DNA of 64,000 nt, from the NCBI RefSeq assembly GCF_005889735.1, contig NZ_VCKY01000021.1:1-64000 (forward strand). Reading direction: 5' to 3'. This DNA comes from Nonomuraea turkmeniaca. GTDB lineage: Bacteria; Actinomycetota; Actinomycetes; Streptosporangiales; Streptosporangiaceae. This document shows, in pieces, positions 1 to 4,285 of this stretch. A program made the position numbers and the translations under genes. Under the pieces are notes generated by a model. It had not been told where the DNA came from. It saw only the letters and a list, made by a program, of their open reading frames with translations, and did not search any database. Positions within the stretch are counted from its first letter, which is position 1, and every line of letters begins with the position of its first letter.

Positions 1-2
1 GC

Positions 3-116
3 CAACACGCCGAATTCGTGGCGGCCACCGAGCCGGTCTATGAAAAGTGGAAGAAGCAGATCGGCGCCGAACTGGTCGACCTGGCCGAGAAATCGATCGC
101 GGCCCGCAAGAAATAA
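3..116 (+). CDS. C-terminal end of TRAP-type solute-binding protein (foreign segment)
   Basis: This is the last 37 codons of a gene that enters from the left edge and stops at TAA 114-116. The tail is Lys/Glu-rich and helical (it contains VYEKWKKQIG and ends IAARKK), which resembles the end of DctP-type periplasmic binding proteins of TRAP dicarboxylate transporters. Such proteins capture organic acids in the periplasm of Gram-negative bacteria, so the gene is out of place beside the actinobacterial genes that follow. The IS481 end at 280 points to Bordetella. The family call rests on a short tail and is tentative; the foreign origin is much better supported. Confidence 0.5.
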   Translation, partial: QHAEFVAATEPVYEKWKKQIGAELVDLAEKSIAARKK

Positions 117-184
117 GCAGCAGCCAAAGGGGAACGGCGGCGCAAGCCGCCACGCAAGGCAGGGGCGCACAACCCTCCAACCCA

Positions 185-222
185 ACGGACGCCGGCCAAA
201 AGCTGGCGTCCGTTTCTTTTTC
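185..222 (+). terminator. Rho-independent terminator of the TRAP-type gene
   Basis: A 12-base stem with one mismatch (185-196 with 202-213) and a short A-rich loop is followed by a T-rich run (213-222). It lies about 70 bases after the stop codon of the upstream gene. Confidence 0.75.
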
Positions 223-227
223 CTCCC

Positions 228-255
228 GGAGCCTGTCCCCACGGGGACAGGCTCC
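228..255. repeat. Perfect 13-bp inverted repeat
   Basis: Arms 228-240 and 243-255 pair perfectly around a two-base loop. No T-run follows. It sits between the terminator and the IS481 end in the foreign segment; intergenic hairpins of this kind are, from memory, common in Bordetella. Confidence 0.6.
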
Positions 256-279
256 CCGTCACACGCCACGAACGCTAGC

Positions 280-538
280 TGTGAAGATTCAATAGGTTGT
301 ATGCATGGTTCATCCGAACCGGATTTGAGAAACTGGAAATCGCCACCCCCCCAGTTCACTCAAGGAGCCCGGCCGGATGAACACCCATAAGCATGCCCGA
401 TTGACCTTCCTACGTCGACTCGAAATGGTCCAGCAATTGATCGCCCATCAAGTTTGTGTGCCTGAAGCGGCCCGCGCCTATGGGGTCACCGCGCCGACTG
501 TGCGCAAATGGCTGGGCCGCTTCCTGGCTCAGGGCCAG
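280..538 (+). mobile_element. IS481 left end (Bordetella type), truncated
   Basis: The element starts TGTGAAGATTC at 280, directly after GCTAGC (274-279), which matches the known IS481 preference for NCTAGN targets. From memory, 280-538 reads as the left end of Bordetella pertussis IS481, the region used as a diagnostic target for whooping cough. The match appears to stop near 538, where an unrelated T-rich stretch leads into a sequencing adapter. Only about a quarter of the ~1.05 kb element is present. Confidence 0.88.
377..538 (+). CDS. IS481 transposase, N-terminal fragment
   Basis: The protein starts MNTHKHARLTFLRRLEMV and contains a helix-turn-helix (AARAYGVTAPTVRKWLGRF, about residues 32-50). 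This is the DNA-binding start of the IS481-family DDE transposase. The catalytic domain is absent because the reading frame runs into the adapter; residues beyond about 54 are artefactual. An SD-like AAGGAG lies upstream of the ATG. The fragment cannot be functional in this context and most probably never belonged to this genome. Confidence 0.85.
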
Positions 539-547
539 TTGTTTTTT

Positions 548-613
548 CAAGCAGAAGACGGCATACGAGCTGTCTTAGGGTCTCGTGGGCTCGGAGATGT
601 GGATAAGAGACAG
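548..613 (+). other. Illumina Nextera P7 adapter (artificial sequence)
   Basis: 548-571 matches the P7 flow-cell oligo (starts CAAGCAGAAGACGG). 572-579 is in the position of the 8-base i7 index. 580-594 (GTCTCGTGGGCTCGG) is the Nextera read-2 adapter, and 595-613 is the transposon mosaic end with one mismatch (ends TAAGAGACAG). The preceding T-rich 541-547 may be the oligo-T spacer of the flow-cell primer. The order P7-index-adapter-mosaic end is exactly that of a library molecule, so this junction is technical, not biological. The + strand continues from the mosaic end straight into actinobacterial insert at 614. Confidence 0.97.
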
Positions 614-2097
614 CCCCCGCCGGGCTGCTGGGACCCGCCCCCGCCTGGGCGCTGGAACCCGGCGCCGGCGGGCCGCCGGAAGCCGCCGCCCTGTCCACCA
701 CCGGGCCCACCGCCGGTGGAGGGCCCGGCCGTCGGGATGGCCCCGGTGTGCGGGGACGCGGCGGTGTCCACGGCGTACGCCGCCGGCCCCGCCAGGCACG
801 CCGCCAGGGCGACCGCGGCCACGGCCAGGACGCGGCGGGTCAGCACCAGCGCCAGCGCCGCCCCCAGGCCCGCCACCGCGACGGCGACCCCCAGCCAGGA
901 GTTCCAGTCGGCGCTGCGCGACAGCAGCACGTACGACCACACGGCCGTCCCCGCCGTGATCACGGCTGGCAGCCAGCGCGCGCCCCGCTCCCAGAGCACG
1001 GCGGCCCCCATGCCGACCAGCACGGCGATGGCCGGCGCCAGCGCCACGGTGTAGTACGCGTGGAAGATCCCCTGCATGAGGCTGAAGACCAGCCCCGTCA
1101 CGATCAGCCAGCTCCCCCACACCCAGAACGCGGCGCGGACCGGGTCGACCCGCGGCGCCCGGCGGGTCAGCCACGTGACCGCGACCAGCAGCACCAGGGC
1201 CGCGGGCAGCAGCCAGGAGATCTGCCCGCCCGCCTCGGTGTCGAACATCCGCAACCATCCGGCCTGCTGGTTGAGGTTCCCCAGCCCGCCGTAATCGGCT
1301 CCGTTGAGCCGGCCGATGCCGTTGTAGCCGAGCGCCAGCTCCAGCACGCTGTCGGTCTGCGAGCCCCCGATGTACGGCCGCTCCGAGGCGGGCACCAGCG
1401 CCACCGCCAGCAGCCACCACCCCGCGGCGGCCACCATCGCGGCCCCGGCCACCAGCAGCTGCCAGATCCGCCGCCAGAACGCCACGGGCGCGGTCAGGAG
1501 GTAGACCAACGCGAACCCCGGCAGTACGAGAAACGCCTGCATCATCTTCGCCAGGAACGCGAACCCGATCGCCGCCCCCGCCAGCACCAGCCACCGGGTC
1601 GCGCCCCGTTCCTGGGCCCGCACCACGCAATAGCCCGCGACGGTCAGCAGCAGGACCAGCAGCGCGTCGGGGTTGTTGAACCGGAACATGAGCACGGCCA
1701 CCGGCGTGACCGCCATGACCGCCCCGGCCAGCAGTGCCGCCCATGGGCTGAACAACCGGCGTACGGAGGCGTACACCATGGCCACCGCGCCGACGCCCAT
1801 CAGCGCCTGCGGGACGAGGAGGGCCCACGAGTTCAGCCCGAACAGCCGCACGCTGAGCACCATGGGCCAGAGCGAGGCAGGCGTCTTGTCGACGGTGATC
1901 GCGTTCGCGGCGTCGGAGGCCCCGAAGAAGAACGCCGTCCAGCTCTGGCTGCCGGCCTGCACGGCCGCCGAGTAATACGAATTGGCCCAGCCTGATGCCC
2001 CCAGGCCCCAGATGTACAACAGGCCGGTGCCCACGAGAAGGGCGGCCAGCGCCCAACGAGACTTAGCTTCGGTAACCACACCCGGAACGCTAGGCAT
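614..2097 (-). CDS. Polyprenyl-phosphate mannosyltransferase-like GT39/ArnT family membrane protein, 3' truncated
   Basis: The protein is a multi-pass membrane glycosyltransferase of the PMT_2/ArnT (GT39, GT-C fold) superfamily, which transfers sugar from a polyprenyl-phosphate donor to protein or lipid outside the membrane. About 494 codons are present. It has an early membrane helix, an extracytoplasmic loop with the conserved ITVDKTPASLWP segment near residue 67, about ten further membrane helices, and a Gly/Gln/Pro-rich tail after residue ~460. The C-terminus is missing: at 613 the sequence becomes adapter, and the open frame through the adapter is spurious. It lies downstream of the rplL terminator and is transcribed on the same strand. 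The substrate is not predictable from sequence. Confidence 0.85.
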
Positions 2098-2172
2098 GCC
2101 GATTGGCGAGGCGATGAGACCAGGATGAGAATCTCCTGAGCCCCACGCGGACGGCGCCGCTCAGGAAATGCG

Positions 2173-2216
2173 AAAAGGGGCGGAGACATCCGGCACCAGG
2201 ATGTCTCGCGCCCCTT
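2173..2216 (-). terminator. Terminator after rplJ-rplL
   Basis: A long stem pairs 2173-2191 with 2199-2216. Read on the minus strand it ends in CTTTTCG, a short T-run. It lies just after the rplL stop and separates the ribosomal genes from the mannosyltransferase. Confidence 0.8.
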
Positions 2217-2237
2217 CTCAGAAGAGACAGGACCGTC

Positions 2238-2630
2238 TTACTTCACGGTCACGGTGGCGCCGGCGCCCTCGAGGGCAGCCTTGGCCTTCTCCGCCTGCTC
2301 CTTGTTGACCTTGCCGTCGAAGACGTTCTTCGGAGCGCCGTCGACCAGGTCCTTGGCCTCCTTGAGGCCCAGGGACGTGAGGGCGCGGATCTCCTTGATG
2401 ACCTGGATCTTCTTGTCGCCGGCAGCCTCGAGGACGACGTCGAACTCGTCCTGCTCCTCAACAGCGGCGGCCTCGGCGCCACCACCGGCGGGGGCGGCGG
2501 CGGCGACCGCGACGGGGGCGGCGGCCTTGACGTCGAAGACCTCTTCGAACTGCTTCACGAACTCGGACAGCTCGAGGAGGGTCATCTCCTTGAACGAGTC
2601 GAGCAGCTCTTCGGTGCTGAGCTTCGCCAT
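2238..2630 (-). CDS. rplL: 50S ribosomal protein L7/L12
   Basis: The 130-residue protein has the usual L7/L12 architecture: an N-terminal dimerisation helix ([18 protein letters not shown]), an Ala/Pro/Gly hinge (about residues 38-55), and a C-terminal domain ([20 protein letters not shown], then [12 protein letters not shown]) that recruits translation GTPases to the ribosomal stalk. Length and every block are typical. It follows rplJ by 71 bases and should be cotranscribed with it, with dosage controlled by the L10 leader upstream of rplJ. Confidence 0.98.
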
Positions 2631-2701
2631 GATGCTTTCCTTACGTTTAGGACTTGCAGAAAACTAGGAACGGGACCGCGGTAGTGCGGCAATCCCCGGT
2701 A

Positions 2702-3226
2702 TTACTCGCCCGCCTCTTCGCGCTTCGCGCGGAGGGCGTCGGCCAGCTGAGCCATTTGCGTGGGCAGCGCGGCGAACATCGCGGCAGCAGCGCTCTGCTT
2801 CGCCTTGAGCGCACCGGCAAGCTTCGCGAGGAGGACCTCGCGGGACTCGAGGTCGGCGAGCTTGGTGATCTCGGTAGCGTTGAGCGTCTTGCCCTCGAGC
2901 ACGCCGCCCTTGATCACCAGAAGGGGATTGGCCTTGGCGAAGTCACGCAGACCCTTGGCCGCCTCCACGACGTCGCCCTTGACGAAGGCAACGGCGGTCG
3001 GGCCGACCAGCAGGTCGTCAAGACCATTCACGCCGGCCTGGTTGGCGGCGATCTTGGTCAGGGTGTTCTTCGCCACGGCGAACTTCGCATTCCCACCGAG
3101 AGAGCTGCGCAGCTCCTTGAGCTGAGCGACGGTGAGACCGCGGTACTCGGTCAGAACGGCCGCAGCGCTGCCCTCGAACTCGCTCTTGAGCTCGGCAACC
3201 GCTGTCGCCTTATCCGGCCTCGCCAT
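2702..3226 (-). CDS. rplJ: 50S ribosomal protein L10
   Basis: The 174-residue protein starts [20 protein letters not shown] and contains the L10 core ([30 protein letters not shown]). The Ala-rich C-terminal helix anchors L7/L12 dimers. L10 forms the base of the stalk on 23S rRNA and, with L12, is the classic autoregulator of its own mRNA leader. The ATG is preceded by a good ribosome-binding site (AAGGAGG). Confidence 0.98.
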
Positions 3227-3320
3227 GGGCCTCCTTCCAGATGTGCCGCCGGCGAAGGCCCCTGAACATGAGAACAGCCCCGGGCGCAGGAGCGCACACG
3301 GGGCTCACACACATGGATCA
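3227..3320 (-). promoter_or_regulatory. Candidate L10 leader (autoregulatory mRNA structure)
   Basis: Upstream of rplJ, the minus-strand transcript contains an AGCCCCG/CGGGGCT stem (3276-3282 with 3299-3305) followed by a GC-rich stretch up to the Shine-Dalgarno. Position and shape fit the ribosomal protein L10 leader that binds the L10-L12 complex. I judged this by eye; no covariance model was run. Confidence 0.5.
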
Positions 3321-3466
3321 GACCATGCGGGAAACTCGTATCACACCTGCGCGGGTCGTCCACATGATGTGGATCCTTCGGCCGCCAGGTTTGAGCACCT
3401 GACGACGACCGACGGTCTTCGGCAACGACCAGACTACGTCCTGGCCGCCGAGTTTCCAAATCGTTC

Positions 3467-4285
3467 TCAGTTGGTCGTGCCCTTGGGCAGCTCTCCGATC
3501 TGGTCCGCGGGCGGGGTCTCGATGGTCACGGGCTTGTTGAAGTCCTTGAAGAACAGCGTGGCGTCGAGCGTGGCGCCTTCCTTCTGCCCGTTCAGCGCGA
3601 GCTTGCGCGGCAGCCCGTCGGCGGCCACCCAGATGTCGAACTTGACGTCCTTGAGCTCGGCGAGGTTCGTACGGGCCTGCTGCTGCTCTTCGGCGGGCAG
3701 CAACAGCACGGCCGCGTCGACCGGGAAGCTACCGCTGTAGTGGGTGGTGTCCTCGCCGTTGACGCTCTCGTTGCCGACCGACTTCACGTCCTGCGAGGCC
3801 GTGACGAGCTTCGTCACGTTGGCCAGATCGAACTGCTGGATCTGGGACAGGTACTGGTTCACCTGGTTGGAGTCGCCCATCTCGGAGAGCGAGACCTTGA
3901 TCCACGGCTTGGTGCCGCCGACCAGCTCCTTGAGCGCCTCGACCTTGACGTAGACGGCGTCGCCCTGCAGCACGGCGCGCACGCCGCCCGGCAGGCTCTG
4001 ACCGCCCATATCGACGGTGTCCAGGGTCAGGTCCACGGCAAGGGGCTGCTTCTGGTAGAGCATGCGGCCCTGCACCCGGCCGTTGCCTTGCTGGGGGTGC
4101 GTCGCGTTCACCACGGCGTCGACGGAGTAGCTCGAGACCTCCGCCGTCTTCTGCGCGGCCTGCGCCAGGACCTCCGAGGCCGCCAAATTGACCTGGATGG
4201 GTTGGGCATTCGTGCCACAACCGGCAACCGCGGCCACGACGAGCGCGGCTCCGGCCGCGGCGAGACTTATCGTGCGCTTCAGCAT
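3467..4285 (-). CDS. LppX/LprG-family lipoprotein
   Basis: The 272-residue protein has a lipoprotein signal peptide with the lipobox VAGC (Cys23), so it should be lipidated and face outward from the membrane. The rest (SYSVDAVVNATH near residue 53, VQGRMLYQKQPLAVDLTL, later FDIWVAADGLPRKLAL) matches the LppX_LprAFG fold, a half-barrel with a lipid-binding cavity. Mycobacterial LprG and LppX shuttle lipids or lipoglycans across the envelope. The gene lies between the rplKA and rplJL units on the same strand. The ligand is unknown. Confidence 0.85.
   Translation of the reverse strand: MLKRTISLAAAGAALVVAAVAGCGTNAQPIQVNLAASEVLAQAAQKTAEVSSYSVDAVVNATHPQQGNGRVQGRMLYQKQPLAVDLTLDTVDMGGQSLPGGVRAVLQGDAVYVKVEALKELVGGTKPWIKVSLSEMGDSNQVNQYLSQIQQFDLANVTKLVTASQDVKSVGNESVNGEDTTHYSGSFPVDAAVLLLPAEEQQQARTNLAELKDVKFDIWVAADGLPRKLALNGQKEGATLDATLFFKDFNKPVTIETPPADQIGELPKGTTN

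Follow-up and report, generated by a model that had tools for sequence, protein, structure and literature searches.

IS481 is described in a passage of PMC6321869 as an element of 1053 bases that is present in up to 300 copies per Bordetella pertussis genome. PMC7236299 gives BP-1 and BP-2MOD as primers for IS481 of B. pertussis, and their sites serve in diagnostics. For library construction, an excerpt of PMC7589761 gives the index part of primer N726-B as GTCTTAGG, which is read as CCTAAGAC. The window analysed here, a stretch of 64,000 bases at the start of contig C133 (75,089 bases), contained a part of IS481 and a Nextera adapter directly beside a mannosyltransferase-like gene. We conclude that this join arose in the assembly as an artefact, with a trace of Bordetella-type contamination, and is not a biological feature. 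The first-pass annotation had reported the adapter, and this finding is correct and ordinary. The fact added here is a Bordetella-type IS481 contaminant.

Adapter stretches were also present in deposited records. Window positions 1-700 matched 52 of 50,697 phage records, and positions 500-640 matched 13 of 72,556 plasmid records. All 20 phage matches listed and all 13 plasmid matches hit the adapter part, in some cases under annotated genes. In the phage records, the adapter was located within 100 bases of the record end in 12 of the 20 listed and was internal in the other 8. In the plasmid records, it was at the record end in 1 of 13 and internal in 12 of 13. We took these stretches for artefacts too. 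However, the start of C133 differed from ordinary untrimmed Nextera ends, since another organism's DNA was located beyond the adapter.

The adapter was searched for with a 66-position pattern that consisted of P7, eight free index bases, a part of read-2, and the mosaic end in fixed order and spacing. The letters of P7, read-2, and the mosaic end were taken as the usual Nextera ones; in the literature, the P7 and read-2 letters co-occurred with the word Nextera. The pattern gave one match in the window, at 548-613 on the forward strand with two mismatches, and none in 100 dinucleotide-preserving shuffles of the window. The four parts followed one another as expected and at the expected distances, with 8 of the 66 positions free. 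Thus, the coordinates and the order proposed in the first-pass annotation held, whereas its word "complete" was slightly strong for a structure with two mismatches. All parts were on the forward strand. The Illumina P7 flow-cell sequence occupied 548-571, with an exact core at 548-568 and one mismatch close to its end (GAGCT instead of the expected GAGAT). It was followed by the i7 index GTCTTAGG at 572-579, the read-2 part of the Nextera adapter at 580-594, and the Tn5 mosaic end at 595-613. The mosaic end also had one mismatch (GATAAGAGACAG in the window, TATAAGAGACAG expected), and an exact 22-base piece of read-2 and mosaic end was found at 580-601. The genomic insert started at 614. Exact pieces of the P5, read-1, and TruSeq adapters had no match anywhere in the window. 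The index reads as CCTAAGAC, that of N726; the window had the index in common with primer N726-B, whereas the read-2 part differed from the primer as printed in the excerpt of PMC7589761.

A T-rich linker at 539-547 on the forward strand preceded P7. It was probably part of the adapter construct and probably arose where the read ran on beyond the P7 molecule. Contig C146 began with a longer T run followed by the same parts in the same order, and 17 of the 20 phage matches listed (of 52) began at window position 539. We assume that these T-rich bases are explained by the T-spacer of the flow cell.

We then considered the whole assembly, which comprised 11,350,886 bases in 592 contigs with a completeness of 99.98 and a contamination estimate of 3.08. 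The mosaic end was found with up to three mismatches in 39 copies on 39 contigs, and a reversed control pattern gave 0 copies in the same assembly. A contig end lay within 60 bases of 38 of the 39 copies, and 16 of the 39 finished on the very last base. The only deeper copy was that of the window, 594 bases in. End sequences were inspected for 24 of the 38 contigs other than that of the window. Of 21 adapter matches, the ten with E <1e-10 were of P7 type, and the index GTCTTAGG was exact in seven of these ten (the window, C146, C42, C25, C266, C562, and C398). It had one mismatch in C19, and in the remaining two it was cut by the contig end, being exact as far as present in C361 and having one mismatch in C563. 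Thus, the window carried the library index common to the other adapter copies of the assembly. Because this index recurred, the P7-type copies were assigned to one library that was assembled untrimmed. Some other contig ends carried the Nextera read-1 adapter, which was complete at C309; the letters by which such ends were recognised are those we take to be read-1. The first-pass annotation had called the join technical, and this was borne out by the ordered adapter, the empty shuffles, and the one index recurring at contig ends.

To the left of the adapter, window positions 275-538 on the forward strand corresponded to the 5' part of IS481. Two IMG/VR records matched this piece at 99% identity, and a third record was 100% identical over 275-327, where the record ended. 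A search with one 30-base piece had retrieved these three records and no others. The transposase gene started at 377, and its start matched Pfam LZ_Tnp_IS481 (7.1e-09). Both long IMG/VR copies ran on as IS481 after ...GGGCCAG, whereas the window switched to TTGTTTTTT and the adapter. The cut at 538 was located inside the transposase gene. Accordingly, the piece was nearly identical to IS481 DNA, but with 264 of about 1053 bases present it lacked the far end of the element and the rest of the transposase gene. At a C-run, a few bases differed from the compared copies. The left flank of the window was unlike the flanks of the three IMG/VR records.

The likeness to IS481 of B. pertussis consisted in exact sites for BP-1 and BP-2MOD within the piece, at 286-310 and 413-432. 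A reverse IS481 primer printed in a part of PMC4667485 was located at 442-466 with one mismatch to the window. The piece matched one place in the assembly when 40 of 72 candidates were scored, and one 16S match was found with 26 of 185 candidates scored. Related DNA of 71-76% identity was present in 15 plasmid records from proteobacteria. Some other Bordetella carry IS481 as well, so the species of the contaminant is not certain. The source was probably B. pertussis or a close relative. When 7,900 bases of the IMG/VR locus L066 were compared with phage records, 9 of the 182 matching records were Bordetella phages, which did not name the host of that locus.

The remaining part of the foreign flank, 1-274 on the forward strand, contained the end of an open frame at 3-116 that resembled the C-terminus of a DctP-type TRAP transporter binding protein, followed by a hairpin-like stretch. 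In tblastn, 37 amino acids of this frame gave weak matches to 10 plasmid records (E up to 0.1), the best at 7e-3, and 6 of these 10 carried a TRAP/DctP annotation. The fragment had no Pfam match when searched with a query that carried an extra leading M and T absent from the window. The hairpin-like stretch was at 228-255, between the DctP-like frame and IS481, where 28 bases matched their own reverse complement at 93%. Positions 1-541 were compared with 150 genomes of the family, with up to four candidates scored per genome. Matches were obtained in 24 genomes including the own genome, and in the 23 matching genomes among the other 149 no match was longer than 48 bases. Exact scans of genome_contigs with 37 bases of the flank and with 28 bases of IS481 gave no match, and hence no match to a named Bordetella genome. 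The flank and the IS481 piece probably share one contaminant source, and we infer that it supplied all of 1-538. The GC content was 64.6% in 1-274 and 57.2% in 275-538, compared to 68.5% in 615-64,000. This contrast was rejected as proof of a join, because 538-base stretches with GC down to 57.6% were present elsewhere in the window. The Bordetella-type IS481 part and its flank to the left of the join meant that C133 starts with a cross-organism chimera and not merely with an adapter-tailed contig end.

To the right of the join, the mannosyltransferase-like gene was located at 614-2097 on the reverse strand (Pfam PMT_2, 5.5e-29), adjoined by the L7/L12 and L10 genes. Its 3' part was absent at the join. 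Within the genus, 14 of 21 genomes had a match to the gene, the own genome included. The high GC and the gene content suggest that the genome is that of an actinomycete. The six best other genomes showed 85-93% identity and open frames of 653-831 codons. In a protein alignment, two relatives continued about 139 residues further, starting in a glycine-rich stretch. A 122-residue piece of this C-terminus from a relative (G019) was matched best by the end of contig C359 (4236 bases), with 88% identity over query positions 15-91 (E 2e-42), and a second matching piece adjoined the first on the same contig. Elsewhere in the assembly, only weak matches of this C-terminus were observed, 37% on C195 and 32% on C556. 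The C-terminal part occupied 3885-4235 of C359 (L069) as two adjacent pieces with overlapping query ranges. This overlap may reflect either an error in sequencing or a true minor difference.

C359 and window positions 615-4000 were compared as separate pieces with nine relatives. The end of C359 aligned in eight of the nine. In the ninth (L053) it was unaligned, and that locus begins at the first base of its own contig. Both contig ends aligned in seven relatives, where arithmetic on the alignments placed them 55 to 145 bases apart; the gap was 73 bases in the closest relative (L050). In the eighth (L058), the window aligned only further in. Window positions 1-614 had no match in this nine-relative comparison. 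Since the order in the relatives predicts C359, the true neighbour of the contig end is C359 and not the IS481 piece. The first-pass annotation had also stated that the mannosyltransferase was truncated by artefact. We reached the same result, because the proteins of the relatives continue and the 3' part was found on the C359 end, so that the gene was cut only in the assembly. GC at the break was 84% (618-800), which likely led to poor coverage there.

These results suggested, with a probability of about 0.97, that an untrimmed Nextera read-through of the own library was retained and that the assembler attached a contaminating, IS481-bearing stretch to it. A short Nextera fragment of the own library would end at 614, read in the reverse direction. 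The read would then pass the mosaic end, the read-2 part, the i7 index, and P7, and run into an A-rich homopolymer tail. Such read-through tails were kept at many contig ends, and at the start of C133 the assembler would have continued into contaminant DNA that held a part of IS481. The bridge was most likely a chimeric or low-quality read tail. A trace contaminant may show up as IS481 because of the up to 300 copies per genome given in the passage of PMC6321869. It is also conceivable, although unlikely, that reads beyond the end of their own molecule picked up the signal of a neighbouring cluster and so produced a cross-sample chimera with Bordetella DNA. Within the read-through reading, the chances are about even that index misassignment or carry-over from a different sample of the same run supplied 1-538, rather than Bordetella DNA present in the culture or library. 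The single IS481 place and the single 16S match among the candidates scored make the contaminant look like a trace, and an element as abundant as described in that passage would be the easiest trace to assemble. However, cross-sample origin and trace DNA in the library look alike at the level of the assembly, and the contamination estimate of 3.08 may speak against the former.

A genuine move of IS481 into this organism, with only the adapter at the break being artefactual, would agree with the occurrence of IS481-family elements in many bacteria and of the related DNA on the proteobacterial plasmid records. However, such a move is very improbable. The copy in the window is 99% identical to the IMG/VR copies and was the only one found in the assembly among the 40 of 72 candidates scored, and it stops within its own gene exactly where the adapter tail starts. 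In addition, the real neighbour of the mannosyltransferase-like gene is C359, and in the 23 matching genomes among the other 149 of the family no match exceeded 48 bases, with up to four candidates scored per genome. An engineered construct in the strain, for example Tn5-tagged DNA, is more improbable still. Tn5 is the origin of the mosaic end, whereas P7, a library index, and a read-2 site are established to be out of place in a living strain, and the index GTCTTAGG was also found at other, unrelated contig ends. The read-through of the own library with an attached contaminant was thus retained as the explanation of the join.

The value of this finding is mainly for curation. Left unmasked, the contig start suggests a high-GC bacterium with a whooping-cough diagnostic element, and it also reports a truncated mannosyltransferase. 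Adapter screening of contig ends and masking of C133 1-613 would clear this false signal. The assembly has 38 further contigs with the mosaic-end sequence at an end. One contig, C162 (L034:1-77), started with 58 T-rich bases that were not adapter-like and were followed by the mosaic end; these bases are perhaps a similar junk tail.
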